63,642 nucleotides of DNA, taken from Bacteroidales bacterium (GTDB lineage Bacteria > Bacteroidota > Bacteroidia > Bacteroidales > JAIOZK01). The position numbers and the translations under genes were made by a program. The stretch is taken from assembly GCA_021740625.1 (NCBI GenBank), contig JAIOZK010000023.1:1-63642 (forward strand), written 5' to 3'. The notes beneath the pieces are model-generated. The model saw nothing but the letters and a program-made list of their open reading frames with translations. It was not told the origin of the DNA and ran no database searches. Below, piece by piece: positions 44,781 through 58,709 of the stretch (the stretch's first letter is position 1; each line of letters opens with the position of its first letter).

Positions 44781-44801
44781 TTAAATTTGTCACAAATTTA
44801 A
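44781..44801. promoter_or_regulatory. 21-bp inverted repeat over the promoter
   Basis: Arms TTAAATTTGT (44781-44790) and ACAAATTTAA (44792-44801) around a single C. The right arm contains the -7 box of the flavoenzyme gene. Could bind a regulator or only reflect back-to-back -7 boxes. Confidence 0.6.
44793..44800 (-). promoter_or_regulatory. -7 promoter element of the CoA-disulfide-reductase-type gene
   Basis: TAAATTTG on the minus strand, 24 bp before the start codon. Confidence 0.6.
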
Positions 44802-44802
44802 C

Positions 44803-44814
44803 GAACATATGTTC
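44803..44814. promoter_or_regulatory. ArsR/SmtB-type operator-like palindrome
   Basis: Perfect GAACATATGTTC, two bases upstream of the -7 box and so between -7 and -33, the place for a repressor. The sequence matches the TGAACA-n2-TGTTCA core of ArsR/SmtB-family metal-sensor operators. The same 12 bp occur at 58696-58707. Confidence 0.75.
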
Positions 44815-44877
44815 ATTACACAAATCTGTTACTGATTTTTTTAATAAATGTGTAAGTGCCAATAAAAGCCTTTGATA

Positions 44878-45330
44878 TCATTCATTATAATCAATACGAA
44901 CCTGCGGGGTATCGAGGCTATCCTTGATGATCTCCTGCCATTCATTCGTTTGCCAGCTTCCAAGTTTCTTGTGCACACTGTAATATTTTTCAGGGATCGG
45001 ATGTGTACCATACACCACTTTCAGCTCATATTTCGCTTCTATGAACTTTTTAAAATGTTTTAAATAAGGACAGGGTGGATAACCGACAAGAAAGCCTGTT
45101 GCCAGGTGAATCACCTCGGCACCGTTCTTTTTCATTTCTTCCGGGGCATATTCTATGTTGCCCCCCGGACAACCACCACAGGTAGTATAACCTACGATCT
45201 CCACTTCCTGGTCTTTTCCGTAGATTTTAAATCCACCATCCCTGTTTTTCAGAGCTTTGAAACATTTACCGCCGGCACATCCGCTGTAGCGATCACAAAT
45301 GATGATTCCGATTTTTGTTGTCTTTTTCAT
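44878..45330 (-). CDS. CGGC-domain protein
   Basis: 150 residues. The family's CGGC motif is in GYTTCGGCPGGN; other conserved cysteines are DRYSGCAGGKC near the start and YPPCPYLKHF. The CGGC domain is a putative metal- or iron-sulfur-binding domain of anaerobes, with unknown activity. Last gene of the operon starting at 49802, 1 bp after the DUF364 gene. Confidence 0.88.
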   Translation of the reverse strand: MKKTTKIGIIICDRYSGCAGGKCFKALKNRDGGFKIYGKDQEVEIVGYTTCGGCPGGNIEYAPEEMKKNGAEVIHLATGFLVGYPPCPYLKHFKKFIEAKYELKVVYGTHPIPEKYYSVHKKLGSWQTNEWQEIIKDSLDTPQVRIDYNE

Positions 45331-45331
45331 T

Positions 45332-46051
45332 TTAATCAGTTCTTGCTAATACTTTTTTATTTTCATACCGCATAAAATCGCGGGTTCCCCCGTCCTGCTG
45401 AATGATATCAAGCACGCGAAAGCAAAACCGATCGAAGGTAGTACCACAGATCAGTTTGATATTATCGTATTCAAATAAATCATTTGACATGATGGATGAA
45501 GGCCCCAACATGAATACATCGCATTGATCCCGGATAGCGCTGATCACATCATAGAAGGTTCCGTTGAAAATGGAAGTCGAAGTCAGAATTAGCCCGTCGG
45601 CACTTTTCAGGTAAAGCGCTTTTTCTGATTCTAACCGCGTGGAATCATCTTTTAGGCGGGGATCAAATATCTTAATATTAATCTTTTCCTTTTCAAATTT
45701 CCTTGACAATGAACCAAAATAACCAAGCATAACGATCCTTTGATACTTTTGAAAGCGAACCAATTCAAATATATCCCCATCCTCCTTATGATTTAAATAA
45801 TTCAAGGTAGCATTATAATAGGCAACCAGCACGATCCTGTGTGAGATCAAACTCAGATCAGGTTCTTTGTACAGGATGGGATCAGGATTTATTTTTTCAC
45901 CAAAATTGGCACAAACGCCAATGTTGCCATTCTTCAGAAGTACCGCCGTATATTTACTTCCGGAATATATCCGGCTGATCAATTCCACACCAAAGGTGTA
46001 TTTTCCAACAAAATGTTCAAGCGGGTCATTATATTTAATCAAGTCTACCAT
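45332..46051 (-). CDS. DUF364-type protein (putative heavy-metal chelation domain)
   Basis: 239 residues. The C-terminal Rossmann-like half (ADGLILTSTSIFNGTFYDVI, VFMLGPSSIMSNDLFEYDN, LICGTTFDRF) is the DUF364 signature; the N-terminal part (FGVELISRIYSGSKYTAVLL) corresponds to the DUF4213-like domain. The family is linked in anaerobes to metal-cofactor genes. Overlaps the Cys-rich mini-protein gene by 17 bp. Confidence 0.78.
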   Translation of the reverse strand: MVDLIKYNDPLEHFVGKYTFGVELISRIYSGSKYTAVLLKNGNIGVCANFGEKINPDPILYKEPDLSLISHRIVLVAYYNATLNYLNHKEDGDIFELVRFQKYQRIVMLGYFGSLSRKFEKEKINIKIFDPRLKDDSTRLESEKALYLKSADGLILTSTSIFNGTFYDVISAIRDQCDVFMLGPSSIMSNDLFEYDNIKLICGTTFDRFCFRVLDIIQQDGGTRDFMRYENKKVLARTD

Positions 46052-46235
46052 CTATTTCACCATTGGGCAGCATGTTGTCGGGATGATATTCTCCATTCAT
46101 CTCTTTTTGAAAACGTACACAATCATTCCAGTTTCCTTTGCAGTAATTCTCAATCCATTTTGATTCAATTTTTCCCTGTTCCCAGAATCGCTTCATAGGG
46201 CAAACAGCAAACCAGATACACTCCTTATCATCCAT
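46035..46235 (-). CDS. 66-residue cysteine-motif protein
   Basis: Short protein with four cysteines arranged as C-x5-CP and C-x6-C (CIWFAVCPMKRF; YCKGNWNDCVRF), plus many aromatic and basic residues. The arrangement suits one iron-sulfur cluster or a zinc site. Similar CPMKRF...CKGxWxxC mini-proteins are known as uncharacterised neighbours of redox genes. Tight packing between two genes of the operon supports its reality. Confidence 0.75.
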   Translation of the reverse strand: MDDKECIWFAVCPMKRFWEQGKIESKWIENYCKGNWNDCVRFQKEMNGEYHPDNMLPNGEIDGRLD

Positions 46236-46249
46236 TGCAAAACAACAGC

Positions 46250-47416
46250 TTAATTTGAATAACCAAAATACTTTTCTATCCTGTCGAAAGCTTTGTTGAT
46301 CATTTCTTCTGATACGCAGAAGGAAAGCCTCACATGACTTTCTCCTGCAGGCCCGAAAGCAATACCGGGAGTTGCACTCACCTGCACTTTATCAAGCAGA
46401 TCCTTGCAAAAAGCCAGCGAGTCCTTGCCACGGGGATCATTGATCCTGGGAAACATCAGATATGAACCTCCGGGCTTATTGTACGATATGATTTCTGACA
46501 TTCGATCCAATCTTTCGCACATCAGGTTTCTGGCATTGAAATAATGATCTCTGAATTCATCGATACAATCCTGTGGTCCCTTTAAAGCTTCCAATGCTGC
46601 ATATTGAGAAACAACGGGAGCACAAATTGCAAAGGGGATATGTGCTTTCTTGATTTGCTGGATCATTTCTTCACTTGCATGCAGGTAACCAATTCGCCAG
46701 CCAGTCATAGCATAAGATTTGGTAAAAGTGAAGTTGCTAATCACCCTGCCCTTCATTTCCGGCATGGAAGCTATGCTAAAATGCTTATGATCGTCAAAAA
46801 CAAAGTACTCATAGGCTTCATCAGTAATGATGGTCAGGTTATTCTCAAGGGCAAGTGCAGCAAGTTTGCGCAGATCATCCTCAGGAAATACCGTACCCGT
46901 GGGATTGTTCGGTGAACACAACATAATCGCCCTGGTTTTGGAAGTTATGGATTCATTGATGGCTTCAATATCAAGGGCAAAATCATTCTCTTCCCGCAGT
47001 GGCACCAGCACAGGTACTCCTGAAGCAAGCCTGACCTGTGTTATATGGGTTGAATAAGTTGGCATGGACAAGATCACCTCATCGCCCGGATCAATCACTG
47101 CCATAACGGATGCAATCAAACCTTCAACAGCACCCACCGTTACCAGCAGTTGTGAAACATTTGCTTCTATATGATTGTCCCTGTTCAGCTTTTTAGCAAT
47201 TTCCTCTCTCAGCTCGGGCAGGCCGTCGCTTTGCGAATAACCTCCCGTGAGACCTTTATGGATTGCATCTATCGCTGCATGATTGATGTGGGAAGGTGTT
47301 CCTGATGTTGGTTTGGCCCATGACAAGAACGCAACATCATCATATTGCTTCGAAAGCCTGGTCATCTCATGGATGGCAGATTTTTTAATTTGATTCACTC
47401 TGTATGAAGTATCCAT
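46250..47416 (-). CDS. PLP-dependent class I/II aminotransferase
   Basis: 388 residues, fold type I aspartate-aminotransferase family. The Schiff-base Lys is in NFTFTKSYAMTGWRIGY; the PLP-binding Asn/Asp/Tyr residues are in SPNNPTGTVFPEDD and IITDEAYEYFVF; the C-terminal Arg is in SHVRLSFCVS. Substrate is not deducible. Sits in an operon with a methyltransferase, radical SAM protein and CGGC/DUF364 proteins, where a simple amino-acid aminotransferase is unexpected. Confidence 0.92.
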   Translation of the reverse strand: MDTSYRVNQIKKSAIHEMTRLSKQYDDVAFLSWAKPTSGTPSHINHAAIDAIHKGLTGGYSQSDGLPELREEIAKKLNRDNHIEANVSQLLVTVGAVEGLIASVMAVIDPGDEVILSMPTYSTHITQVRLASGVPVLVPLREENDFALDIEAINESITSKTRAIMLCSPNNPTGTVFPEDDLRKLAALALENNLTIITDEAYEYFVFDDHKHFSIASMPEMKGRVISNFTFTKSYAMTGWRIGYLHASEEMIQQIKKAHIPFAICAPVVSQYAALEALKGPQDCIDEFRDHYFNARNLMCERLDRMSEIISYNKPGGSYLMFPRINDPRGKDSLAFCKDLLDKVQVSATPGIAFGPAGESHVRLSFCVSEEMINKAFDRIEKYFGYSN

Positions 47417-47420
47417 ATAT

Positions 47421-48053
47421 TCAGATTTTTAATGCTTTTAATACAACAAAACCGCCCCTGCCATGACCGGAAACAATGTTTTGCACTTTTTTTATGTTTT
47501 CCAGTTTTCCAAAAACTGTCTGGCAAATACTATCCAGGTTGAAACCTGTATTCAACAATATTTTATGCAGCTCATTCGTGCTGTAAAAAACAGCATCGCG
47601 GTAAAAAATATTTTCATGTTTGTGTTTTAAGTAAATTTCCCCGAGCTGACTGTCTTTATCAACAAAAGCAAGCAGGAAAACACCTTGATCTTTTAATACC
47701 CGGTTTACTTCGTAGAAAGCTTTTTCAACATCATCCAGGAAACAAACAGTGGTGACCATCAAGACAGCTTCCTTGCTTTTATCTGGATATGGGAGGTTTT
47801 CCCCAACCGCCCGGATCACATGAATTCCTCTTCGCCGAGCCTTTTCTCCCATTTCTGCGGAGGGTTCGATTCCTTCCTTAATGCCAAGCTTTTCAGCAAA
47901 AAGGCCACTGCCCACGCCCACTTCAATCACTTCGGTATTCTCAGGCATCATTTGCCTGATCGCGTTTACCTCAGACCGGAATGCAAATTGGTTTTGTACG
48001 AACCAGTCTTCGTATTCTTCCAGATGTTCATCAAATGCTTTTGTTTTCGGCAT
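47421..48053 (-). CDS. class I SAM-dependent methyltransferase
   Basis: 210 residues from ATG 48053 (a GTG directly before it is less likely). Motif I VIEVGVGSGLFAEKLG, the acidic motif II region GIEPSAEMGEKARR, and AVLMVTTVCFLDDVEKAFYEV are of the UbiE/BioC class. 4 bp before the aminotransferase gene. Substrate unknown. Confidence 0.9.
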   Translation of the reverse strand: MPKTKAFDEHLEEYEDWFVQNQFAFRSEVNAIRQMMPENTEVIEVGVGSGLFAEKLGIKEGIEPSAEMGEKARRRGIHVIRAVGENLPYPDKSKEAVLMVTTVCFLDDVEKAFYEVNRVLKDQGVFLLAFVDKDSQLGEIYLKHKHENIFYRDAVFYSTNELHKILLNTGFNLDSICQTVFGKLENIKKVQNIVSGHGRGGFVVLKALKI

Positions 48054-48079
48054 CACCTTGCATTAATACGACCTCATAT

Positions 48080-49039
48080 TCATTTCTCTGCAGGAATTCG
48101 ATAAAACAATCCTCTTTCCTGCCTGACAGATTCAATTTTATCCTCAGATTCCAGCACATCCAGGTATTTGTTGATCTCGTTAACATGCAATCCCAGGATA
48201 TCTGCCAGATCTTCCAAGGTACAGGGTCTCCTTGCAATGGTTTCCAGGATGGCTGATTCGGAATCTTTGCGGTATGATTGTATATCTTTCCTTTTGGAAG
48301 CAGCTGCAATGATCTCAACATTATCCAGGCTCCATAAATCCATGATCTTTTTCAGTTCCTGATAACTGGCAGCTCTCAAATCCTCTCTGCTTCCTGGTCT
48401 GTCGAGTGTGTTCAATTGTATCCTGTCGGGCTGAATTTCCTGAAAAACTTTCTTCATTGCATTCAATTCCTTTTCATCATCATTGAACCCGGGAACGATA
48501 AAAACTTCCAGCCAGATCTCACCATCGAACTCTTTGCGAAACCCGATCAATCCTTCAATAATTTTATCAGCTTTCAATTTACGGTCTGGGCGGTTCACCT
48601 TTTTAAAAGCAAGATCACTAACTGCATCGAGGTTTGGCAGGATCACATCAGCATCCATGAGCTCCTGCCGCAACTCTTCGTCATAAAGCAAAGTACCATT
48701 GGTGAGCACTGCTACAGGGATGCCTGGTTTGTTCTTTTTGATAAACTTCAGGATGTCTCCAATCCTGCTGTTCAGTGTTGGTTCGCCATAGCCTGAAAAA
48801 GTGATATAATCCGGATCGGGATTGTTGCTGAAATAATCCTTTAGTTCTGCAACAACTTTATCGTAAGGAATATATTCCATTCTCTCGGTGGTCAGCTTTG
48901 TCGTTGGCCCTACCTCGCAATAGATACAATTCAGCGAACAAACCTTTTTGGGTACAAGATCCACCCCGAGCGACATCCCGAGTCGCCTGGAAGGTACCGG
49001 TCCGAATAAATATTTATACATATCTGCCAGTTTTTTCAA
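48080..49039 (-). CDS. radical SAM protein with C-terminal winged helix
   Basis: 319 residues (an internal start at 49021 is possible). Cluster motif CSLNCIYC at about 34-41, GEPTL motif (YGEPTLNSR), then AVLTNGTLL and FIVPGFNDDEKEL; the class resembles COG0731 proteins. The last ~75 residues form a winged helix (ILETIARRPCTLEDLADILGLHVNEIN in parts). DNA-binding and radical SAM on one chain suggest a sensor-type or RNA-modifying role; unknown. 8 bp after the KaiC-like gene. Confidence 0.88.
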   Translation of the reverse strand: MKKLADMYKYLFGPVPSRRLGMSLGVDLVPKKVCSLNCIYCEVGPTTKLTTERMEYIPYDKVVAELKDYFSNNPDPDYITFSGYGEPTLNSRIGDILKFIKKNKPGIPVAVLTNGTLLYDEELRQELMDADVILPNLDAVSDLAFKKVNRPDRKLKADKIIEGLIGFRKEFDGEIWLEVFIVPGFNDDEKELNAMKKVFQEIQPDRIQLNTLDRPGSREDLRAASYQELKKIMDLWSLDNVEIIAAASKRKDIQSYRKDSESAILETIARRPCTLEDLADILGLHVNEINKYLDVLESEDKIESVRQERGLFYRIPAEK

Positions 49040-49046
49040 TCATCAA

Positions 49047-49802
49047 TCAGATCTTAGAAATTGCAGGGATCACAACACTTCTGCTATGTTCTGCAACTTG
49101 TTTTATATGTTCAAGTTTTCCCGGGTCAATTTTCACCTGGACTTCTTCCGTCTTAAAGGATACGTCTTTCATCCTGATCACTTTAAGATAAAGGCGGAAA
49201 GGCTTTTTTGTGCTTCTTGTCATGATCAGGTTGTCAGCAACTTCCTCCAGATGAGCGATCTCTTTCGCCTTGGCCGAGGTACTGACCGAAAACAAATAGG
49301 TCATTTTGATATCCGAAGTAATGGTGTTTCTGATCGCTTCCAGGATTTCCTCACCATAGGTTGGAGAGAACAAAAGCAGATTCAGAGCAGATCCAAAAAC
49401 AAGCACACCAGGGCCTTCATCAGGCAGATGATCTTTAATTTTAATCATCACACATTCCCATACATCCGGTTTTACCAGGTTTGCCCTGATGGTATGATCA
49501 TCCATGCTTTTCAATGCTGATAAGTCCGTGTCAAGCTGGATGAACATAATCTTCTCTGCAAAATCATTCAAATCAACATCGGTGACCTCCCTGATGCTTT
49601 CTATCAGGAATTCCTTATCAGGATACTGAAGAGACATAAAAGCCACACTGCCGCCCGATTTAAGCCATGCAGCCACAAAATTTTCACCGATCAGCGGTTT
49701 GCCAGAACCTCCGGGTCCTGTAATGATCGTTGCCGTATGAAGTGGTAATCCCCCGGGCAACAGATCATCAATCCATGATACACCTGTTTTTATCGATTTC
49801 AC
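49047..49802 (-). CDS. KaiC/RadA-like P-loop protein with degenerate ATPase motifs
   Basis: 251 residues, GTG start. Opening KTGVSWIDDLLPGGLPLHTATIITG is typical of KaiC/GvpD/RAD55 ATPases (here in pieces: GVSWIDDLLPGG). The Walker A reads GPGGSGKPL, with Pro where Ser/Thr is needed, and the Walker B strand GPGVLVFGSALN lacks its Asp. It may bind but not hydrolyse nucleotide. First gene of an operon of seven genes and downstream of a perfect FNR box. Looks like a conserved but non-catalytic member and not a decaying gene, as the frame is intact. Confidence 0.82.
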   Translation of the reverse strand: MKSIKTGVSWIDDLLPGGLPLHTATIITGPGGSGKPLIGENFVAAWLKSGGSVAFMSLQYPDKEFLIESIREVTDVDLNDFAEKIMFIQLDTDLSALKSMDDHTIRANLVKPDVWECVMIKIKDHLPDEGPGVLVFGSALNLLLFSPTYGEEILEAIRNTITSDIKMTYLFSVSTSAKAKEIAHLEEVADNLIMTRSTKKPFRLYLKVIRMKDVSFKTEEVQVKIDPGKLEHIKQVAEHSRSVVIPAISKI

Positions 49803-49821
49803 AACTTTTTATTATTTACTA

Positions 49822-49829
49822 CAAAATTA
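49822..49829 (-). promoter_or_regulatory. -7 promoter element of the KaiC-like operon
   Basis: TAATTTTG on the minus strand, 19 bp before the GTG start. Confidence 0.5.
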
Positions 49830-49884
49830 AGCATTAGGATTGTTATGCATAAAAATGAACAAACCATAGATGTTAAGGCAATTC

Positions 49885-49898
49885 TTGATATTTATCAA
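49885..49898. promoter_or_regulatory. FNR-type box upstream of the KaiC-like operon
   Basis: TTGAT-ATTT-ATCAA, a perfect match to the FNR consensus TTGATnnnnATCAA. Its centre is about 73 bp upstream of the expected transcription start, an activator class I position. It lies just after the end of the universal stress protein gene. Confidence 0.8.
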
Positions 49899-49918
49899 TT
49901 AATTTATTGATGTATATG

Positions 49919-50812
49919 TCAGAGAAATTCACTGCCCCAGCTTTCATATTCATTGCTGAAGCCCATGAATTTAGAGGTTTTCTCTGATATTTTTGGAATT
50001 TTAACGCTCAAGACCGGTGTGGCTTCGTGTTTCACAACATCTTCAGCCAAACTCCCATTGATCAAATGCGACAGGCCGGTCCTGCCATGGGTTTCGATTG
50101 CAATCAGGTCGGCATCCACACTTTCACCAAATTCGATGATCCCGGCTTCGATGCTTTTGTGGTTGTAAACATGAACAGAATAATCCCTGAGGTTAAAATT
50201 TCTGACGAATTGATTTATATATTCATTGCTGACAGGAGTGGATTCAAATTCCCTGGGTGTAATTATCTTAAGCAAAAACAAATGTGCATCATAGGTGTCT
50301 GCAAAAAACTGGATTTTATCAAAAACGCTGTACGATTCCTCGAAAAAATTTGAAGCAAACACCATTTTTTTAATATTGAAATCCGGGATTTCATTTTTAA
50401 TGGTCAACACAGGCTGATTTGCCATTCTCACCATTTTTTCAGTATTTGAACCAATGATGATCCGGTTGAAACCACTTTCACCATGCGATCCCATCACAAT
50501 CAGATCAGAATTCCTGAATTGCTTTTCATCTGGGATTTGCCACATCAGCATATTGTTAACAATATGTTTTTCAACCGGGATGCCCCGCATAAAATCGAGT
50601 TTCAGCATCTCCTCCATTTTATGATCTGCATTGGAGTGAACCAGACGATAATACTCATCATAATAATGATTCTTTTCAAATCCTGTTGAGGGAAGATTAT
50701 ACACGTGCACAAGTCGGATCATGCCCTGCAACTTTGAAGCTATTTGGGCAGCAACTTTCAAAGCGTACATAGCATGATCGGAAAAGTCAGTCGGTACAAG
50801 TATGATTTTCAT
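49919..50812 (-). CDS. tandem universal stress protein (UspA)
   Basis: 297 residues with two Usp domains (1-145 and 150-280). Both have the ATP-binding glycine motif: GSHGESGFNRIIIGSNTE and THGRTGLSHLINGSLAED. Usp doubles next to Fnr-family regulators are frequent in anaerobes and often anaerobiosis-induced. Separated from the KaiC-like operon by the FNR box and transcribed in the same direction. Confidence 0.93.
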   Translation of the reverse strand: MKIILVPTDFSDHAMYALKVAAQIASKLQGMIRLVHVYNLPSTGFEKNHYYDEYYRLVHSNADHKMEEMLKLDFMRGIPVEKHIVNNMLMWQIPDEKQFRNSDLIVMGSHGESGFNRIIIGSNTEKMVRMANQPVLTIKNEIPDFNIKKMVFASNFFEESYSVFDKIQFFADTYDAHLFLLKIITPREFESTPVSNEYINQFVRNFNLRDYSVHVYNHKSIEAGIIEFGESVDADLIAIETHGRTGLSHLINGSLAEDVVKHEATPVLSVKIPKISEKTSKFMGFSNEYESWGSEFL

Positions 50813-50922
50813 TTTACATAGATTTGTTTCTTCAATGGTCCCCGTATCCCATTTTATTATAAAGTTAATACTGTATAAGCAAAGATTTCTATGAATTACT
50901 TTTTATCACGTTAATAGAATAT

Positions 50923-50936
50923 TTGAGATTACTCAA
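50923..50936. promoter_or_regulatory. FNR-like palindrome at the second Crp/Fnr gene
   Basis: TTGAG-ATTA-CTCAA, a perfect 14-bp palindrome one base per half-site away from the FNR box. It is centred about 42 bp before the expected transcription start of the + strand regulator gene (class II activator spacing) and about 118 bp before the divergent Usp gene start. Confidence 0.7.
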
Positions 50937-50957
50937 GGATTTTATTGATATATATTT

Positions 50958-50965
50958 TAAATTTG
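50958..50965 (+). promoter_or_regulatory. -7 promoter element of the second Crp/Fnr gene
   Basis: TAAATTTG, matching TAnnTTTG. Confidence 0.55.
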
Positions 50966-50978
50966 TTCTGTAAGTCAT

Positions 50979-50984
50979 GGGGAG
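50979..50984 (+). promoter_or_regulatory. Shine-Dalgarno site fixing the regulator start
   Basis: GGGGAG, 5 bases before ATG 50990. It decides against an earlier in-frame start at 50945, which lies upstream of the -7 box and cannot be on the mRNA. Confidence 0.75.
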
Positions 50985-50989
50985 ATAAA

Positions 50990-51682
50990 ATGGATAAACC
51001 TGAAACCACAAATTGCCTGAAATGCAAAAGAAGCGCACAATGCTTTAAAAAGTTAATCCCTGCTGAGCTTGAATTTATCAACCAGAACAAAACCCAAATC
51101 CTCTACAGAAAAGGGGAAAACATATGCAAACAGGGGGCTTACGCTCCCAATCTTTTATTTATTCTGGACGGACTGGTAAAGGTTTATCTCGACAGTCCCA
51201 AGAACAAGAACATCAACCTGAAAATCCTCAGTACCTCCGAGTTTATTGGCCTGTCATCGCTTTACGACGAAAAATTCTTCAATTACTCCACAACAGCTCT
51301 CAAAGACTCGGTGATCTGTCTGATTGAAAAAACAAGTTTCAGAAAACTCCTTATAAACAATTGTGCATTCTCCTCAGAGATCATAAAAAGATATTGCAAC
51401 AACGAAAGGGAGTTGTTTCATAAAATACAAAGTCTTGGAAATAAACAAATGCACGGCCGCATCGCTGATACTTTGATATACTTGAATGAACAAAGCAAAA
51501 AAGAGGGAAATATATTCCTTTACCTGTCGAGAAAAGATATTGCAGAATTTGCAGGATTATCAACGGAAACTACTGTAAGATTGCTGACCGAGCTGAAGAA
51601 TGATCATATCATCGATATAAATGGAAAAGATATCAAAGTATTACAAGCCGAATCACTGAAAGAAATAAGCCAGAGAGGCTAA
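50990..51682 (+). CDS. FNR-type Crp-family regulator
   Basis: 230 residues. N-terminal C9-x2-C12-x5-C18 has exactly the FNR [4Fe-4S] spacing, and C110 (DSVICLIEK) is at the place of the fourth FNR ligand. Cyclic-nucleotide-binding-like domain 25-145; recognition helix STETTVRLLTEL, close to FNR's VETISRLL, with Glu and Arg kept and Ser replaced by Val. A direct oxygen sensor is likely. FNR-like palindromes lie in its own promoter and before the KaiC-like operon. Confidence 0.9.
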   Translation: MDKPETTNCLKCKRSAQCFKKLIPAELEFINQNKTQILYRKGENICKQGAYAPNLLFILDGLVKVYLDSPKNKNINLKILSTSEFIGLSSLYDEKFFNYSTTALKDSVICLIEKTSFRKLLINNCAFSSEIIKRYCNNERELFHKIQSLGNKQMHGRIADTLIYLNEQSKKEGNIFLYLSRKDIAEFAGLSTETTVRLLTELKNDHIIDINGKDIKVLQAESLKEISQRG

Positions 51683-51703: not shown

Positions 51704-52135
51704 TTAACCATCCACCGCAGATTTCAAAATGCCTGCCTTGATGGTAAACATTTTAAACTCTGTTTTGTTCTGCTCCCATTCTTCCCTGATCCAGTGAAGA
51801 TGGCCCAGGAGGACCTGGATGACTTCTTCAGTAGTATCCTTTTGGACTATCACGGGAATGAAATGCCGGTTGACCAGCTTGATATTTCTGCCAAATTGCC
51901 TGGATACCAATACATTTACATTTTTCTTTCTGAGTGCCTCAATGATGGCCAGGCCCTTCTTTCTTGAACCGTGTTCCTTTTCCTCATCCAGCATTTTAAA
52001 AGGATTCACGAACTCAATTAACTTTTCCATTCCGTTCAAATCTTCCCTGTAGATCAAATATTTATCGGCATCACCAAAATGCCTGTTTTCAAAAACATTG
52101 TCCTGATTAACCGCGAATGCAAAACTCAAATTCAT
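51704..52135 (-). CDS. NifX/NifB-C-like (orange-protein family) domain protein
   Basis: 143 residues, dinitrogenase iron-molybdenum-cofactor-binding fold (MTH1175/ORP class): FAFAVNQDNVFENRHFGDADKY is the typical opening in parts (NRHFGDADKYLIY), then RKKNVNVLVSRQFGRNIKLV. About 35 extra residues at the C terminus. With the gene at 55548 this makes two such proteins in the operon. Nitrogenase structural genes are absent, so an ORP-like metal-cofactor role is inferred. Preceded by an AGGAG site. Confidence 0.85.
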   Translation of the reverse strand: MNLSFAFAVNQDNVFENRHFGDADKYLIYREDLNGMEKLIEFVNPFKMLDEEKEHGSRKKGLAIIEALRKKNVNVLVSRQFGRNIKLVNRHFIPVIVQKDTTEEVIQVLLGHLHWIREEWEQNKTEFKMFTIKAGILKSAVDG

Positions 52136-52210
52136 AATTATATAATTTAACTCCTTTAATTAAAACAAAGTTCAGAAAAATTAGCATGCAAAGTCTTCCA
52201 TCAAACACAT

Positions 52211-54064
52211 TTACAATTTCATCGCGAGATCGTGCGCCTCGTGAATTGCATCTTTGGCTTTACCCACTTTTCTGGCATCACCCACAATATATACGGGTGT
52301 ATCACCTAATTTTTCAAAAGGAACATAACTTTTCATCCCAGCGGATACGACAATCATATCAACATCCTGGAATTGTATATCCTGTTCATCTTTCCTGGCA
52401 TAAACAGTATTTCCTTCCACTTTTGTGATAAAGGTATGATCGCTGAAAAGCGTTTCCTTTTCACGCATCATTTTCAAAGAAAGGTTCTTGGCGATCAATT
52501 CCATATCTTCTCCGAAATCAGTTGTTCTTTTCACAATGATCAGCTTGTTGTTGCGTGGAATCAGGGCGGTGGCAATATCCACTCCCACCAGTCCGCCACC
52601 GATGATCAGGATTTTTTTATTTTCAGGCAAATTCTTTTCCAGCAGGATTTCAGCCCAATGATAATCGCTAAGACCCGGAATTTTAAGCGCAGCAGGTTTG
52701 GAGCCACTTGCCAAAATAACGCCATCATAATCATGCTTCAAATCTGAATCCCTGGCTTCCTTATAAATAACATGTACTTTATTATCTTCCAACTCCTTAA
52801 CGAAATAGGGCACCAGCACACCCATGGATTTCTTACCCGGTGTAAGCGGAGCAAGATTAAACTGTCCGCCCAGTTTTTCTTTTTCATAAAGATCCACTTC
52901 ATGCCCTCTCTTTTTTAAGATCAGTGCGGCTTCCATGCCGGCAAGTCCACCGCCTACCACAGCATATTTTTGGGGTTCTTTTACTTTTTCAATATCGACA
53001 TGATCCTTGCCCACATCAGGATTCACGAGGCATTGCAATCCCACACCGCTTTTCACACCTCCCAGGCACCCATCGGCACAAGCAAGACATGGTCTTATAT
53101 TCCCTTCTAGCTTTCCGAGATATTTACCGATAAAATCAGGATCGGCAACAAGCGCTCTTCCAACAGCCAGATAGTCCGCATGATATTTTTTATCCAGTTC
53201 ATGAACATCTTCCGGGGAGTTGATTCTTCCAACAAAGATTACCGGGATGTTTAGATGTTTCTTTATGGCTTCAGCCATTTCCCAGGTTTTCCCTTTGGGG
53301 ATGAACATATGCTGAAAAAACCAGGGCGGAGTGGAGCATACGGAACCTGCGCTTACATGTATTCCATCCAAACCGGTATTTTGCAGCATTAGGGAAAATC
53401 GTATCATTTCATCCAAATGAAAACCCTTTTCGATCATTTCATCACCGCTGATCCTGGCAATAATTGGCACGTCCACCTCCCTTCTAACAGCTCTGGCAAG
53501 CTCCAGTGGAAACCGAATCCTGTTCTCGAAACTTCCTCCGTAATCATCTTTTCTGTCGTTAACCGCTGGTGACAGAAACTGGGCCAGCAGGTAACCATGC
53601 CCAAATTGAAGTTCAATCATATCAAAGTTTGAAGCTACAGCTCTTCTTGCCGCATTAACAAATAAGCGAATCACCGTATTTATTTTCTTCCGGTCCATTT
53701 TTTCAGGAACAGCACCACCATTCTCGCAGGCTTTGTTGGTGGATGACCAGAAGTAATTGCCGGGAATTTTTGGATTGGCCATTCGTCCCGGATGGTTCAG
53801 ATGGGCAATGGTTTTGGCCCCTTCATTATGAATGGCCAGGTTTAACCTTTTCAATCCTTCAATCATCTTGTCATCATGTATGCCCATCTGTGTCGGAACT
53901 TCTTTCAGACACTCATCCAGGAAAAAGGGCTCGGGGGTCACGGCAGCAATGTATTTGCTTCTCCTGACATAAAAATCTATGTGTTTCTGTTTCACAATTC
54001 CTGAAGCATCGCTATACCCAAGCTTAATAGGAGCAAATATGAATTTATTTCTCAATGTTAACAT
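52211..54064 (-). CDS. Old Yellow Enzyme-type FMN/Fe-S/FAD oxidoreductase
   Basis: 617 residues. FMN-binding TIM barrel (1-340; APIKLGYSD, FGHGYLLAQFLSP, DDYGGSFENRIRFPLE), a cluster motif CLACADGCLGG plus a Cys 11 residues on, and an FAD/NAD domain (YAVVGGGLAGMEAALILKKR about 378; ILIIGGGLVGVDIATAL). This is the 2,4-dienoyl-CoA reductase/trimethylamine dehydrogenase architecture. Physiological substrate unknown. Second-last gene of the ORP-like run. Confidence 0.9.
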   Translation of the reverse strand: MLTLRNKFIFAPIKLGYSDASGIVKQKHIDFYVRRSKYIAAVTPEPFFLDECLKEVPTQMGIHDDKMIEGLKRLNLAIHNEGAKTIAHLNHPGRMANPKIPGNYFWSSTNKACENGGAVPEKMDRKKINTVIRLFVNAARRAVASNFDMIELQFGHGYLLAQFLSPAVNDRKDDYGGSFENRIRFPLELARAVRREVDVPIIARISGDEMIEKGFHLDEMIRFSLMLQNTGLDGIHVSAGSVCSTPPWFFQHMFIPKGKTWEMAEAIKKHLNIPVIFVGRINSPEDVHELDKKYHADYLAVGRALVADPDFIGKYLGKLEGNIRPCLACADGCLGGVKSGVGLQCLVNPDVGKDHVDIEKVKEPQKYAVVGGGLAGMEAALILKKRGHEVDLYEKEKLGGQFNLAPLTPGKKSMGVLVPYFVKELEDNKVHVIYKEARDSDLKHDYDGVILASGSKPAALKIPGLSDYHWAEILLEKNLPENKKILIIGGGLVGVDIATALIPRNNKLIIVKRTTDFGEDMELIAKNLSLKMMREKETLFSDHTFITKVEGNTVYARKDEQDIQFQDVDMIVVSAGMKSYVPFEKLGDTPVYIVGDARKVGKAKDAIHEAHDLAMKL

Positions 54065-54104
54065 AACATTCCGAATTTCATTTTACATTCGTCGCAGGAG
54101 TTAA

Positions 54105-54479
54105 CTAAGCCTGCTTCACTTCGAATATATTACCGGAATTATCCCTGATAAATATCAGATCAAATTTATCTCTTTCGATCCGTTCAACAGTATAATTCTT
54201 TTGCCGGGCATATTCAACAATCTTTTCCCGCTCATTGACAGATATACAAATATGCCGGTAAGTAGGCTGCTGATCCTCACGGTTGAGAAAAACTTCAAGT
54301 CTCACATTTCCATTCTTCAGCAAAAACACATCTGCAGACTTGTCAATATGGAAAATCCTTGCGGACAATTCATTGTTGATCTCAAAACTTTTCTCAAGCT
54401 CAAAGCCCAATACATCGATATAAAAACCATTTATTTCTTCTTTATCGCGGCAACTCATTGCCATGTGTTGAAAGTCCAT
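54105..54479 (-). CDS. VOC (glyoxalase-fold) protein
   Basis: 124 residues, two beta-alpha-beta-beta-beta modules. Landmarks: DFQHMAMSCRDKEEINGFYIDVLGF (in parts FYIDVLGFELEKSF), RLEVFLNREDQQPTYRHICISV, and IFIRDNSGNIFEVKQ at the end. Possible metal ligands H5, H77 and E121. Enzyme reaction not deducible. Closely packed in the operon. Confidence 0.88.
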   Translation of the reverse strand: MDFQHMAMSCRDKEEINGFYIDVLGFELEKSFEINNELSARIFHIDKSADVFLLKNGNVRLEVFLNREDQQPTYRHICISVNEREKIVEYARQKNYTVERIERDKFDLIFIRDNSGNIFEVKQA

Positions 54480-54506
54480 ATCATATATTCTTTTATCAAT
54501 TCATTA

Positions 54507-55544
54507 TCAAATGCCCATACTGAGACCGATCAATCCGAAAACCAAAGCGATGATCACATTTACAAGTTTTACGGCAAGAAAAGCACGCTTGGATTCGGCC
54601 AGTAGGGGCAAGGAGCCATGTCCATCCTGCGAAATAGAGCTGGCCATTAAAATACTGAAAGGAATAGATCCCTGAGCGAACAAAGTAACGAATACCAGAT
54701 GAGGGCCCGACTCAGGGATTATTCCAATCAGTATGGCAAACACTAAGACAACAAACAGATTATTGGCGAGCAGTTCGTTTAAATCTACATAATGAAGCAA
54801 TATACCGAAAACAAGCAATGTACCGAAGGTCCAGTAAAAGATCCTTGGTACATGTTGTTTTGCCACATGTCCCCAAAGGTGATCCTTGAGGAAATGCTCA
54901 GGAACACTGACAACAATGAACAAAGAAAAAGCAACAGCCAGCAAAAGGCTGATTCTGACCCACATTTTGGCGTTTCCTGCCAGTATGCCCGTGAGTATCA
55001 GCACAAAAAGTGTCAGTACGGTCAGGATCAGCAGCAAACGGTATACTGAGGGCCTTGTAATCTGTGGAATGAATTTTTCCTTTTGAAAACATCTGCATTT
55101 TTCCTCAGCATGAAGTGGAAAACGATTCCCGGAGAATTTCTCCAGTATCTTATGCGGTGTGTAGAAACGATCGGTGAGGTAACCCGCAAGAATACCCAGG
55201 GCGAACAAGATCAGTGTAAGGACAAGGGTTGTTTGGGGAAACATGGCCAGCATAACAAAAGCCTCATCTCCACTGGTTGCGATCATGGCAGTAACAATGG
55301 CACCAAAAGATATCATGCGGTGCGAGAAAAGTGCCACTGCTGTAAAAGCCCCCATGCATCCGGGGATAGCTCCCAGCGAGGCAGCCAGCAGATACTGTTT
55401 CCATTTTTTATCCAGTACTTTCCCCTGCCAGATTCCCCTGGTCTGAACATTGATATATTCGATGACCAGCATCATCACGAAAACGAAACCGGTGATCATC
55501 ACAGCCCTTTTCAGGATCTGGACCGATTCCAGCAAGACATCCAT
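54507..55544 (-). CDS. putative 10-TM metal/arsenic exporter
   Basis: 345 residues with about ten membrane helices in two halves, each with a conserved polar motif: AIPGCMGAFTAVALFSH and ATSGDEAFVMLAMFP in the first half; IPESGPHLVFVTLFAQGSIP and SSISQDGHGSLPLLAESKRAF in the second. This is the pattern of the 10-TM putative heavy-metal exporter/ArsP_2 family. A cytosolic loop contains HAEEKCRCF. Starts 3 bp after the NifX-like gene. Substrate unknown; an ArsR-type operator at the operon promoter fits metal or metalloid control. Confidence 0.85.
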   Translation of the reverse strand: MDVLLESVQILKRAVMITGFVFVMMLVIEYINVQTRGIWQGKVLDKKWKQYLLAASLGAIPGCMGAFTAVALFSHRMISFGAIVTAMIATSGDEAFVMLAMFPQTTLVLTLILFALGILAGYLTDRFYTPHKILEKFSGNRFPLHAEEKCRCFQKEKFIPQITRPSVYRLLLILTVLTLFVLILTGILAGNAKMWVRISLLLAVAFSLFIVVSVPEHFLKDHLWGHVAKQHVPRIFYWTFGTLLVFGILLHYVDLNELLANNLFVVLVFAILIGIIPESGPHLVFVTLFAQGSIPFSILMASSISQDGHGSLPLLAESKRAFLAVKLVNVIIALVFGLIGLSMGI

Positions 55545-55547
55545 ATC

Positions 55548-55886
55548 TCAGAATTTTTCCAGTGTTTTGTTTTCGTATGCCTGATAAGCCTCTTTCACAT
55601 TCATATTACCGGCACCTACAAAAATTTCCACCCCTGCCTTTTCAAGCACAGCAGATGCATTTCCCCCCGGACCATTGCCCGTGATGATAACATCTGCACC
55701 CAGATCAAAGATCTTCTGGGCAGTTTTGGGTCCTGCCCCATGGGCTTCTTTTTCAATATCCCGGTTGTCAAGATATTTGAAAACATCTTTCTCCTCATCA
55801 TAGATCAATAAAAAGTCTGCCCTTCCAAACCTTGGATCCATCATGGCATTCCAATCCATGCCTTTTGTTGTAAATAGTATTTTCAT
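55548..55886 (-). CDS. NifX/MTH1175-like (orange-protein family) protein
   Basis: 112 residues from ATG 55886, which overlaps the stop of the preceding ATPase gene (ATGA); an earlier in-frame ATG at 55934 lies inside that gene. Motifs: MDPRFGRADFLLIYDEE, HGAGPKTAQKIFDLGADVIITGNGPGGNASAVLEKAGVEIFVG (in parts ADVIITGNGPGGNA). Members of this family bind small metal clusters, e.g. the Mo-Cu cluster of orange protein. Downstream of two MinD-like ATPases, as in ORP operons. Confidence 0.9.
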   Translation of the reverse strand: MKILFTTKGMDWNAMMDPRFGRADFLLIYDEEKDVFKYLDNRDIEKEAHGAGPKTAQKIFDLGADVIITGNGPGGNASAVLEKAGVEIFVGAGNMNVKEAYQAYENKTLEKF

Positions 55887-56776
55887 TTTTTCTGTTTTAC
55901 CTGATTGACATAATAATTCACTTTCTCCCAGCAAAAATTCATCAATTGTTGCATTGCTTTATCATCGTATTCTGCCATGGTCTTGCCCTGTATCATGGCT
56001 TGCGTAAAAACCTCATCATAGGGTATCTCTGCAATAAAATCGATGGATTCTTCTGACATAAATTCGCGAATTGCTTCACTGATATGCGGATTCAGATCAT
56101 GCTTATTGATGATGCAACCGCTTTTTATTTTAAATTTTTTCACCAGGGCATGAATCCTTCTGAGATCATGCAAACCCGATATGCTTGGCTCGGTAACAAG
56201 CACCACATAATCTGCGCCTGAGAGCGAAGATACCACAGGGCATCCCACACCCGGTGAACCATCCACGATGATCATGTCAGCATTCTTTTCTCTGGCAATC
56301 CTTTGGGCTTCATTCTTCACCTTTGCCACGAATTTACCGGAATTATCCGCACCAATCTTCAGCTTTGCATGGGCCATGATACTGCCGGTTTTTATTGCAG
56401 AAATAAAAGAACGGCCCACATGCTGCTCGATATCTTCAATGGCTTGTTCCGGACAAATTTTAGAGCAATAACCACATCCTTCGCAATTTAATGGATCGAC
56501 GGAATACTTTCCATCCTGAACACGAATAGCATCAAAGCGGCAAATTTCTCCACAATCACCACATGAGGTGCATTTTTCCTGGTCAATGACAGCAAGTTTC
56601 CCACTGTAAAAATCTTCCCCATTCTCAAAGTCCGGTTCCAGCAGCAGGTGCATATCGGCTGCATCCACATCGCAATCGGCCAGGATCACATCCTTGCCAC
56701 CCAGCACACCAAAAGAAGCTGCGATTGAAGTTTTACCGGTTCCACCTTTTCCTGATATGATCACGATTTCTTTCAT
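55883..56776 (-). CDS. MinD/Mrp-type ATPase with ferredoxin insert (ORP-type)
   Basis: 297 residues. Deviant Walker A SGKGGTGKTS at 8-17, an inserted 2x[4Fe-4S] ferredoxin domain (about 62-110; CTSCGDCGEIC, CEGCGYCSKIC), then IIVDGSPGVGCPVVSSLSG (Walker B/switch) . In Desulfovibrio such ATPases accompany the orange protein. Probably assembles or inserts a metal cluster. SD GGAGG before the ATG; overlaps the neighbouring ATPase gene by 4 bp. Confidence 0.92.
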   Translation of the reverse strand: MKEIVIISGKGGTGKTSIAASFGVLGGKDVILADCDVDAADMHLLLEPDFENGEDFYSGKLAVIDQEKCTSCGDCGEICRFDAIRVQDGKYSVDPLNCEGCGYCSKICPEQAIEDIEQHVGRSFISAIKTGSIMAHAKLKIGADNSGKFVAKVKNEAQRIAREKNADMIIVDGSPGVGCPVVSSLSGADYVVLVTEPSISGLHDLRRIHALVKKFKIKSGCIINKHDLNPHISEAIREFMSEESIDFIAEIPYDEVFTQAMIQGKTMAEYDDKAMQQLMNFCWEKVNYYVNQVKQKK

Positions 56777-57642
56777 GACCTCCCTCCTTTTCCAATCCTT
56801 AACACATGATCCCTGATCTTTTCAAAGGCAGCCCTGACATCCTCCAGCTTGTCATAGATCAATTCACCGCCGGAGTATAGCCTGGCGATTTCTCTTTTAT
56901 TCGGAATGGTGGCAATGATGGGTATTTTATTGTTTTTGCAGTAATCCCTGATTTCTTTATCATCCCCTATCCCATGTCGATTGATCACCACCCCGAATTT
57001 CTTTTGCATTTCCAACATGGTTTCAACTGCCAGTTTCAAGTCGTGAAATCCGAAAGGCGTAGGTTCGGTAACCAGGATAATATAATCAGCGCCTTTGCTT
57101 GCCTCAATTACCGGGCAAGAGGTTCCAGGCGGGGCATCATAAATCCTGATCTCATCATGCCCAAAATGCTCTTCAACATAACCCAGAGTTTGTGCAATCA
57201 ATGGAACAGCCTGCTCCTGCCCTATGTCCAGGTGGCTCTCCACAAAATCAATTTCCTTTACTTTGCGGTATTTTAGCTCTCCCATTCTTTGCCGGATCAT
57301 GGGCAGTGAGAAAGTGGGGCATAATTCGGAACAGGCATAACAACTGTGGCAAAGTTCAGGAAAAACCATGATTTGTTGCCCCAGTTGTATGATTGCATGG
57401 AAGTTGCAGTTTTTTTGGCATTCTCCACACAGCGTACATGTACTTTCCTCCCATTCGGGGATATGTTTGTACATGATTTCTTTTTGCACCAGGTTACCAT
57501 GCAAAAACAAACCTGAATTGGGTTCTTCCACATCCAGATCGGTAAGTACGACCTTATGATTTTCCGACAGCAAAGCTGCCAGGTTGACTGAGAGCGTAGT
57601 TTTCCCTGTTCCGCCTTTTCCACTAGCGATGGCTATTTTCAT
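56773..57642 (-). CDS. MinD/Mrp-type ATPase with ferredoxin insert (ORP-type), second copy
   Basis: 289 residues, paralogue of the next gene. Walker A SGKGGTGKTT at 7-16, ferredoxin insert with CTLCGECQKNC and CHSCYACSELC (about 68-110), and YDAPPGTSCPVIEA. Two paralogous MinD-ferredoxin ATPases side by side are the hallmark of ORP-like loci and may act as a heterodimer. Confidence 0.92.
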   Translation of the reverse strand: MKIAIASGKGGTGKTTLSVNLAALLSENHKVVLTDLDVEEPNSGLFLHGNLVQKEIMYKHIPEWEESTCTLCGECQKNCNFHAIIQLGQQIMVFPELCHSCYACSELCPTFSLPMIRQRMGELKYRKVKEIDFVESHLDIGQEQAVPLIAQTLGYVEEHFGHDEIRIYDAPPGTSCPVIEASKGADYIILVTEPTPFGFHDLKLAVETMLEMQKKFGVVINRHGIGDDKEIRDYCKNNKIPIIATIPNKREIARLYSGGELIYDKLEDVRAAFEKIRDHVLRIGKGGRS

Positions 57643-57680
57643 CCTCTTTTCAGACTTAGTGCTTAAATACTCAATCTAAT

Positions 57681-57872
57681 CTATTCGTGCGATATGGCTT
57701 CCACAGGACATTCCTCCTCAGCAGTCATGGCACAATCCTGCAAATCTTCCGGAACAGGATCCAGAATAACCTTTGCCATTTCACCATCATCACTCATCTG
57801 AAAAACATCCGGACATGCCTCTTCGCATGCGGCGCATCCAATGCATAAATCCTCGTCAACAATAAATTTCAT
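57681..57872 (-). CDS. single-cluster [4Fe-4S] ferredoxin
   Basis: 63 residues. C10-x2-C13-x2-C16 and C55-Pro can bind one cluster; C20 and C47 are placed as the disulfide pair of Desulfovibrio gigas-type ferredoxins. Strongly acidic. Lies 39 bp before the MinD-ferredoxin ATPases, so it probably gives them electrons. Confidence 0.93.
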   Translation of the reverse strand: MKFIVDEDLCIGCAACEEACPDVFQMSDDGEMAKVILDPVPEDLQDCAMTAEEECPVEAISHE

Positions 57873-57978
57873 AAATCAAGCATTTTTAAAATCCATTCAA
57901 TAAATTTAGAGTGAGTGACCGGATGACCAACGAATCAACAGACTGATAATGACAAAACTTTCGGGTCATCCAGTCAAC

Positions 57979-58098
57979 TCAAACTGATTTGAACACTTTA
58001 CTCCAACCATCTGTTTCAGTTTCCAGCTTTCCTGCCACATCAAAACTTTTGCGGGGTTTTGCCTCGGATAACATCCAGGTTCTGGCAGGCAGTTTCAA
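57979..58098 (-). CDS. possible short protein, uncertain
   Basis: A 39-codon frame from TTG 58098 (or 31 codons from ATG 58074) that begins 13 bases after the stop codon of the preceding gene and has coding-like composition (LPARTWMLSEAKPRK; KLETETDGWSKVF). No recognisable family. Could be a real micro-protein of the operon or a decayed fragment. Confidence 0.3.
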   Translation of the reverse strand: MKLPARTWMLSEAKPRKSFDVAGKLETETDGWSKVFKSV

Positions 58099-58110
58099 TT
58101 CCGGGATGCA

Positions 58111-58332
58111 TTATTTCTTGCTTTCCAACAGCTCTTCCCTGATCATGGTCTTACCACAATTCGGACACTTTAGCTCAGTGCACTTTACACCCTGCTGATG
58201 TGGCACTTTTTCACCGCATTTGGCGCATACGCAATAGCCGCCAACTCCAAAGCCACCACCCCGGTTCCTGCCCCTTCCACCGCCTCGTCCAAGTCCTCTT
58301 CCCGGTTGATTTCTATTTCCTCCATTCGACAT
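58111..58332 (-). CDS. Gly/Arg-rich zinc-ribbon protein
   Basis: 73 residues. A Gly/Arg/Asn-rich first half (GRGLGRGGGRGRNRGGG) is followed by a zinc ribbon: C-x-C-x2-C (YCVCAKC) and C-x4-C-x2-C (CTELKCPNC). Similar small proteins accompany NifX/ORP-type genes in anaerobes. Function unknown. Eight bases after the DUF5320 gene. Confidence 0.82.
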   Translation of the reverse strand: MSNGGNRNQPGRGLGRGGGRGRNRGGGFGVGGYCVCAKCGEKVPHQQGVKCTELKCPNCGKTMIREELLESKK

Positions 58333-58340
58333 AGCGTTCC

Positions 58341-58655
58341 TTATTTTTCGTTATCACTTTTTTTCTTCAGTTGATCTTCGAGATAAGAGATCTGGTTTTT
58401 GAGCACATTGATCTCATCTTCGATCGCATCCTTATTTTCGGCGCCACGGTATACTTGTCTTCTTCCATAACCGAAACCAAAACCACCGCCGAAACGGAAG
58501 CCTCTTCCACGACCTCTTCCTCCGAAACCACGACCACGACCGAATCCATAACCGCCGTATCCCGGATCAACATCTGATTCACCGGCGCAATCTCCCATGC
58601 GCCAACCCGTCATTGGGCCCATACCTTGGGGACCCGTTCTGTCTCTTCCTGGCAT
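58341..58655 (-). CDS. DUF5320-type Gly/Arg-rich protein
   Basis: 104 residues from ATG 58655, fixed by a Shine-Dalgarno site; a longer frame reaching 58709 starts inside the operator. It begins MPGRDRTGPQGMGPMTGW, the DUF5320 opening, goes on with a long GRGRG/GFGRG tract (about 35-70) and ends in a coiled coil (DEINVLKNQISYLEDQLKKK). The family goes with NifX/ORP-type clusters. First gene of the operon that runs down to 51704. Confidence 0.88.
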   Translation of the reverse strand: MPGRDRTGPQGMGPMTGWRMGDCAGESDVDPGYGGYGFGRGRGFGGRGRGRGFRFGGGFGFGYGRRQVYRGAENKDAIEDEINVLKNQISYLEDQLKKKSDNEK

Positions 58656-58659
58656 AATT

Positions 58660-58666
58660 ACCTCCT
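58660..58666 (-). promoter_or_regulatory. Shine-Dalgarno site of the DUF5320 gene
   Basis: AGGAGGT, 4 bases before ATG 58655 on the minus strand. Confidence 0.8.
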
Positions 58667-58685
58667 GTTTTTTAGATTCACAATG

Positions 58686-58693
58686 CAAATATA
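58686..58693 (-). promoter_or_regulatory. -7 promoter element of the ORP-like operon
   Basis: TATATTTG on the minus strand, 30 bp before the DUF5320 start. Confidence 0.65.
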
Positions 58694-58709
58694 ATGAACA
58701 TATGTTCAT
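58694..58709. promoter_or_regulatory. ArsR/SmtB-type operator-like palindrome
   Basis: Perfect 16-bp palindrome ATGAACATATGTTCAT. The 12-bp core GAACATATGTTC (58696-58707) is two bases upstream of the -7 box, as at 44803-44814. Confidence 0.8.

Follow-up and report, generated by a model that had tools for sequence, protein, structure and literature searches.

Introduction

The ORP-type proteins of Desulfovibrio vulgaris are MinD-type ATPases and FeMo-cofactor-like proteins. According to the accessible passages of PMC3897727, the D. vulgaris operons that encode them are controlled by the sigma54 activator DVU2106 together with IHF. Here we describe an ORP-like operon located in a 63,642-nucleotide stretch of a Bacteroidales bacterium (assembly GCA_021740625.1, contig JAIOZK010000023.1; the whole stretch is hereafter referred to as the window), and a palindrome that lies both over its promoter and over that of a CoA-disulfide-reductase-like (CoADR-like) gene. 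On the sequence evidence presented below, it is highly probable that this palindrome is the binding site of DUF134 (PF02001/UPF0251), which would act as an autoregulated, promoter-occluding repressor of ORP-like, CoADR-like and cytochrome genes. As far as the available passages of PMC3897727 go, the D. vulgaris system is alike in its ORP-type genes, its palindromic sites and the negative autoregulation of its regulator; it differs in that the regulator there is a sigma54 enhancer-binding protein, whereas the one proposed here is a small helix-turn-helix (HTH) protein acting on vegetative-type promoters. DUF134 does not occur in those passages of PMC3897727, in which no search was aimed at it.

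The proposed regulator would work in outline as the ArsR/SmtB proteins do, as a repressor of small size that controls its own gene through a palindrome lying in the promoter, but its profile places it in another family, and its predicted HTH is like that of sigma region 4 rather than a winged helix. With sigma region 4 itself it shares the predicted fold of residues 14–86 and, if the alignments hold, the place of the specificity residues (sigmaA 413–414); unlike sigma region 4, DUF134 is free-standing, often carries a cysteine ribbon, and would have a palindromic target instead of a −35 element. We class it as a new family of repressors whose general kind is known. The label of COG1342 for DUF134/UPF0251 is, we take it, ‘predicted DNA-binding protein’. 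In the open literature, as far as its texts were accessible (most subscription literature lay outside the search), no target site, regulon or function of DUF134 and neither of the two exact palindromes was found, and UPF0251 was mentioned in a mutation table only; the whole word DUF134 stands in two papers, neither of which, to go by its title and the opening of its abstract, concerns what the family does. An apparent DUF134 paper, PMC10434189, was discarded as a word-start match to DUF1349.

Results

A palindrome with a fixed distance to the −7 box over two promoters

The window contains two exact copies of the 12-mer GAACATATGTTC, at 44803–44814 and 58696–58707, each of which has a TAnnTTTG box exactly 2 bp away on the minus strand; these coordinates and distances, proposed in a first-pass annotation of the DNA, were confirmed from the window sequence. 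The corresponding 14-mers, TGAACATATGTTCG and the perfect palindrome TGAACATATGTTCA (Table 1), differ by a single outer base. No exact copy of the 12-mer appeared in 100 dinucleotide shuffles of the window. When 12-mer and box were searched together with up to 3 mismatches, the window matches were these two sites only, and the shuffled windows had a mean of 0.06 matches, none of them having two. The shuffles bear out the earlier view that the repeated geometry is unlikely by chance. The interpretation that the palindrome acts like an operator over a Bacteroidetes-type promoter is supported, and it is very likely a genuine DNA switch common to a small set of sulfur-/metal-redox genes.

We extended the search to the whole genome (4.0 Mb, 52 contigs; G000 in our numbering). 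The exact 12-mer occurs three times, against once for the reversed-pattern control, so the ‘dozens of hits without promoter context’ envisaged as a counter-argument at first pass did not appear for the exact 12-mer. With the box included and up to 3 mismatches allowed, there were 4 distinct sites (a palindrome matched on both strands counted as one) and none for the reversed control. The third exact copy, at C25:11988, lies upstream of an octaheme-cytochrome operon and is followed by TATTTTG, a box one base short of TAnnTTTG. The gene behind it encodes a multiheme cytochrome (Cytochrome_cB, 240 bits) with eight CxxCH motifs, which we presume to be octaheme-tetrathionate-reductase-like, and the next gene of the operon a cytochrome b561-type protein with PAS domains (L004:13703-15043). 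The bare 14-mer with up to 2 mismatches was found at 30 places, compared with 9 for the reversed control. One such place without a box was inspected (C21:1817, 1 mismatch); it falls within what looks like a deaminase gene, and we attribute it to chance.

The operator precedes DUF134 genes

One gene of this genome exceeds the DUF134 profile cut-off of 27 bits (G000:C1:106322-106942, minus strand; 77.4 bits in the genome search, 75.6 bits for the protein). Its own promoter carries the palindrome: directly before the gene, at C1:106962, stands TGATCATATGTTCA, with one mismatch, followed by T and TATCTTTG in the same spacing as in the window. The gene after it is FeMo-cofactor-like. Another PF02001 match, on C12 (23.9 bits), falls below the cut-off; it concerns a 137-residue protein beside a gene read as an integrase and was set aside.

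Across 295 genomes of the order, operator plus box was found at 28 places in 24 genomes (own genome and the two window sites included), and the reversed control gave none. The next gene, as judged by eye, was DUF134 at 14 places, DUF5320 at 10 (two of which were recognised only in later DUF5320-focused scans), FeMo-cofactor-like at 2 and CoADR-like at 2. All but one of the 24 operator genomes (23) have DUF134, versus 154 of the 295 overall (Fisher p = 1.8e-6, lists crossed by eye). At 111 loci of DUF134 in the order (that of this genome, the 30 highest-scoring and the next 80 among the matches listed), we searched 220 bp of upstream sequence plus the first 30 bp of the DUF134 match, and the best match to TGAACATATGTTCA had at most 2 mismatches at 76 of them, compared with about 0.2 in dinucleotide shuffles and 0/110 in stretches 400–650 bases downstream. 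With start codons reassigned, TAnnTTTG stood at the exact window offset at 50 of 74 sites with at most 2 mismatches. At loci that do not fit the consensus, other palindromes of equal length are often present (TGAGC..GCTTA, TGAGA..TCTCA, TGCAC..GTGCA).

DUF134 matches extend to two archaea among the control genomes and, in a sample of the phylum, to 82 of 296 genomes (own included; 75 over the cut-off). For the SRxTFGRI-type DUF134 proteins of other phyla, TGAGC-N4-GCTCA was predicted beforehand and then found. This set comprised 80 loci, the highest-ranking of 551 confirmed out of 584 matches listed; the query being of the Gly type, most of these loci are too. Upstream of these loci we found mostly TGAGCATATGCT(T/C)A or close variants, and a template-free search gave AGCATATGCT as the most frequent exact palindrome (29/80). 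Sites were scored with a mask that ignores bases 2 and 4 (maximum 10; strong, 9 or more). Among the 64 strong sites of the other phyla, 55 overlap a −10 hexamer and 48 have TTGA upstream, with a 17-bp spacer in 36 of the 48. The spacer between TTGACA and TATAAT is filled by the site, as in the sigma70-type promoter of a Syntrophaceae DUF134 gene, TTGACA-TGAGCATATGCTTA-TATAAT. The order sample instead has the TAnnTTTG box, at 42 of 70 strong sites.

Residues of the predicted recognition helix covary with the half-site

A masked score of at least 8 was reached at 158 of 191 loci and in 26 of 187 control stretches, and a score of at least 9 at 134 of the 191 and in a single control stretch of the 187. 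In the helix motif SRPTF-X-R, residue X appears tied to base 4 of the half-site. At scores of at least 8, the 77 loci with Thr or Ser at X had the half-site pair AA at 66 and GG at none, whereas the 81 with Gly or Ala had GG at 68 and AA at one. All 156 strong sites gave the same picture (a recount including 3 loci with T or C in the Thr/Ser half-site pair, which the two-state base-4 count omits): with Gly/Ala (92 sites), GG 80, AG 8, GT 3 and AA 1; with Thr/Ser (64 sites), AA 56, AG 4, AT 2, AC 1 and GG 1. The residue after X goes with base 2, for which Asn had TT at 15/15 and Arg at 0/141 of these sites; the Asn proteins have half-sites of the form TTRGC..GCTAA. Proteins of Planctomycetota (L225) and Omnitrophota (L243) with Ser or Thr at X have TGAAC..GTTCA.

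A third set of 40 loci, chosen by hand in the phylum sample so as to cover different families, yielded 22 strong sites. With Gly these had GG at 18 and AG at one, with Thr AA at 2/2, and one Ser-Asn protein had a discordant GG; base 2 was TT with Asn (8/8) and GG with Arg (14/14). Two proteins with Gln at X (L331 and L332; family codes f135 and f159) go with a third palindrome type, TGTGCATATGCACA. The contact residues of DUF134 thus appear, from these comparisons, to change together with the operator letters.

The DUF134 protein and a possible mode of action

Profile matches of the own DUF134 protein below their cut-offs were to Sigma70_r4 (21.2 bits versus 24.1) and HypA; at E 0.001 the search returned no ArsR model, and the Pfam scan no other sigma region. 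The predicted HTH structure, based on 40 aligned relatives, has a mean pLDDT of 86, with helices at 36–47, 52–58 and 63–83, and the SRxTFXR motif forms the start of the predicted third helix. VIA-align of the predicted residues 14–86 retrieved mostly sigma region 4 domains, with Z up to 7.4 over 57 residues, all below the relationship level of 8. The top PDB matches of Foldseek, MCM N-terminal domains with a TM-score of about 0.2, were discarded as poor. A PDB sequence search for a relative of the HTH gave none that was convincing, the best (E 0.06) being to a ribbon. Provided that the alignments to 1ku7, 1ku3 and 1rio are right at their ends (constant offset 346), X and the next Arg would correspond to residues 413–414 of T. 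aquaticus sigmaA, which we take to contact −35 DNA. After the HTH, 135 of 188 members (3 of 191 were not scored) have a CxxC..CxxC cysteine ribbon, a feature of 90/97 Thr/Ser-type and 45/91 Gly/Ala-type proteins and thus not universal; a metal or thiol state may be what this ribbon detects.

What the sequences show (the sites and their geometry, the position of these sites before DUF134 genes in many phyla, the co-occurrence, and the residue–base covariation) led us to the following model. In it we infer that DUF134 physically binds and dimerises, that it represses and does not activate, and which signal it answers to. A DUF134 dimer would bind, through its sigma-region-4-like HTHs, a pair of TGAAC half-sites separated by roughly one turn of the helix and, sitting inside the promoter spacer, would exclude RNA polymerase. 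It would thereby repress its own gene with the downstream FeMo-cofactor-like gene, the ORP-like operon (58.7–51.7 kb), the CoADR-like gene (44.8 kb) and the octaheme-cytochrome/cytochrome-b operon (G000:C25). Our guess is that the signal may be reduced-sulfur redox or the condition of a metal-sulfur cofactor, and that it reaches DUF134 through its C-terminal cysteine ribbon or the neighbouring FeMo-cofactor-like protein.

Genes associated with the operator

Downstream of DUF134 in the 111 order loci, FeMo-cofactor-like genes were found at 71, MinD-type ATPase genes at 26 and DUF5320 at 17; the respective numbers for the 80 loci of other phyla were 26, 6 and 1. The FeMo-cofactor-like genes of this regulon suggest a metal-cofactor link. 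DUF5320 occurs in 109 of the 295 order genomes, and DUF134 in 100 of these 109 versus 54 of the 186 others (lists crossed by eye). We scanned upstream of 30 DUF5320 loci, for one of which no start was found. Where no DUF134 helix lies upstream, 12 of 15 carry the operator with no more than 2 mismatches (6 of these 12 being known from the order scan), and one of the three operator-less loci is in a genome without DUF134 (G224). Where DUF134 lies upstream, 5 of 14 have it; DUF5320 genes behind DUF134 may share the DUF134 promoter. A second, weaker site (TGG start, GTTCA-like end) is often seen 125–165 bp before DUF5320 genes that follow DUF134 (L268, L269, L273, L276, L280 and L281).

The pairing of operators before CoADR-like and ORP-like genes recurs in G103, a second species of the genus, and in G102, of another family. 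By their listed coordinates, CoADR-like and DUF5320 genes lie on the same contig and strand within 14 kb in 7 of 13 close relatives (G000, G102, G103, G007, G172, G176 and G180). A weak site with 3 mismatches was noted in G103 at C30:51139. In G123, a single operator stands between divergent DUF134 and octaheme-type cytochrome genes.

The window genes behind the two operators are listed in Table 1. The oxidoreductase behind operator 1 was read as CoADR-like, both at first pass and by us. The operon behind operator 2 combines MinD-type ATPases with FeMo-cofactor-like proteins and in this respect forms an ORP-type cluster; its last two listed genes are probably co-transcribed with it, as judged for the Oxidored_FMN gene from strand and spacing. 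The small ribbon protein of the operon matches, at 41% over 34 residues, the C-terminal end of the own-genome DUF134 (L052:8326-8493), representing the same module, so that a sensor–target link is possible. Two further genes in this sulfur/ORP cluster, at 42623–43318 and 50945–51682 (both plus strand), were read as encoding Crp/Fnr-type regulators.

Table 1. Operators, promoter elements and associated genes in the window
Feature	Position	Strand	Details
Operator 1	44802..44815	minus	14-mer TGAACATATGTTCG, over the promoter of the CoADR-like gene
−7 box of operator 1	44793-44800	minus	TAnnTTTG = TAAATTTG, 2 bases from the 12-mer
Candidate −33 element of the operator-1 promoter		minus	TTTG, 20 bases further upstream of the −7 box
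Operator 2	58695..58708	minus	Perfect 14-mer TGAACATATGTTCA, over the promoter of the ORP-like operon
−7 box of operator 2	58686-58693	minus	TAnnTTTG = TATATTTG, 2 bases from the 12-mer
FAD/NAD-dependent pyridine-nucleotide-disulfide oxidoreductase (target gene 1)	43407..44768	minus	Pyr_redox_2 2e-54, Pyr_redox_dim
DUF5320 protein	58341..58658	minus	First gene of the ORP-like operon; PF17253, 74 bits
Small CxxC..CxxC ribbon protein	58111..58332	minus	No Pfam match
Ferredoxin	57681..57872	minus	ORP-like operon
MinD/CbiA-type ATPase	56773..57642	minus	4Fe-4S motifs; ORP-type
Second MinD/CbiA-type ATPase	55883..56776	minus	4Fe-4S motifs
Nitro_FeMo-Co protein	55548..55886	minus	NifX/ORP-like
ArsP_2, putative 10-transmembrane heavy-metal exporter	54507..55544	minus	132 bits
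Oxidored_FMN + Pyr_redox_2 oxidoreductase	52211..54064	minus	Probably near the end of the ORP-like gene train
Second Nitro_FeMo-Co protein	51704..52135	minus	Same gene train

Discussion

Several observations weigh against DUF134 as the repressor acting on these sites. Support for its proposed binding to the operator comes from covariation, and the covariation counts are inflated by the kinship of the sequences. One locus was counted twice (L110 = L167), and L185 and L190 share their site surroundings. With the tested residues masked and supported branches used, only 3–4 independent contrasts remained (sign-test median p 0.25), and 2 in the larger set (p 0.5), numbers too small to reach significance; on average these agree or do not differ, and single random pairings include a discordant one. 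There are also exceptions, namely a Gly protein with TGAAC..GTTTA (L174), a Ser-Asn protein with G in both halves (L320), four Thr/Ser proteins with one G half-site, including that of G103 from the genus of the window, and three in which one half has T or C, including the own DUF134. Among the order loci, 35 of 111 have more than 2 mismatches, and in G199 (L041) the operator precedes FeMo-cofactor-like genes with no DUF134 detected, possibly owing to a missing contig or to another regulator. An operator of its own is seen for the CoADR-like gene in only 3 of 13 close relatives (G000, G103 and G102), and for the octaheme-type cytochrome in only 2 of the 30 relatives examined (of 58 matches listed), one being the own gene. 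In the phylum sample the exact 23-mer was found in the own genome only and was absent from 295 other genomes; this result led us to the variant half-sites, which explain part of its absence. Finally, 12 of the 40 phylum-sample loci, all of family code f136, have no recognisable site; five of them score 8 with the mask, on sequence that does not form a palindrome of the operator kind. These site-less copies (L293-L303 and L317) have the SRxTFGRI helix, and SRQTFGNI copies of the same family have TTRGC sites.

The first-pass annotation attributed the palindrome to an ArsR/SmtB metal sensor. ArsR-type operators have a 12-2-12 layout, which the 14-mer resembles, and an ArsP_2 exporter is encoded inside the ORP-like operon. 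We rejected this assignment because the only two ArsR (HTH_5) genes found in the genome, at C19:27092 and C11:7294, lie far from any operator site, neither adjoining a copy of the 12-mer, and have palindromes of their own upstream, TTTCGTATTTTTACGAAA and TTCTGATATGTCAGAA, which are unrelated to the 14-mer (best match upstream of both, 5 mismatches). Across genomes, moreover, the operator stands before DUF134 and not before ArsR genes, leaving the metal-sensor explanation with next to no probability. The C19 gene heads a set read as an arsenate-type operon (L054:2973-5955), whose promoter palindrome is TTTCGTATTTTTACGAAA. The 87-residue protein at 37558, suggested at first pass as a weak candidate regulator, did not stand up either: its HTH matches were sub-threshold, none to ArsR, and the best match upstream had 5 mismatches. 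The accompanying proposal of one repressor for both promoters retains its plausibility as to a shared regulator, given the pairing in G103 and G102, and fails as to ArsR identity.

Some other factor could bind the palindrome, with DUF134 merely among its targets. Crp/Fnr sites are palindromes of 14–16 bp, and the cluster itself holds the two genes read as Crp/Fnr-type; these were rejected, however, the 14-mer being matched upstream of them only at 5 mismatches, and an outside factor would not account for the way in which, from phylum to phylum, the letters of the half-site follow the recognition-helix residues of DUF134. We regard such a factor as very improbable. It is just as improbable that DUF134 binds the palindrome and activates, or works as a partial sigma factor. 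The resemblance of its DNA-binding part to sigma region 4, seen in the sub-threshold Sigma70_r4 score and the structural matches, would fit such a role, but no further sigma region accompanies it in the Pfam scan, and the site fills the spacer of promoters with good elements and the usual spacing. MerR-type activators that bind the spacer use spacers of 19–20 bp; we favour repression because the spacer here is 17 bp between good hexamers.

Beyond DUF134 as the repressor of the genes described above, a wider interpretation, to which we give somewhat less than an even chance, is that DUF134 is a family of autoregulated repressors across many phyla that acts under anaerobic conditions as the general switch of ORP/FeMo-cofactor-like, thiol-redox and cytochrome genes, sensing a metal-sulfur cofactor or reduced sulfur, and that it uses a two- to three-letter protein–DNA code. 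In this code, which shares the same tentative standing jointly with the family-wide switch, Thr/Ser, Gly/Ala and Gln would specify the inner bases of TGAAC, TGAGC and TGTGC, respectively, and the next residue, Arg or Asn, would set base 2, giving TGAGC or TTRGC.

A family of ‘unknown function’ thereby gains a specific and testable role, with a proposed target site, regulon and DNA-reading residues. To our knowledge, the purpose of the ORP complex and the FeMo-cofactor-like proteins is unsettled; the proposed regulon offers a handle on them, since it names the genes that would be switched alongside, namely those for the CoADR-like enzyme, a tetrathionate/nitrite-reductase-type cytochrome with eight hemes and the 10-transmembrane exporter. 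A residue–base code would let the regulons of uncultured anaerobes be predicted from sequence alone.

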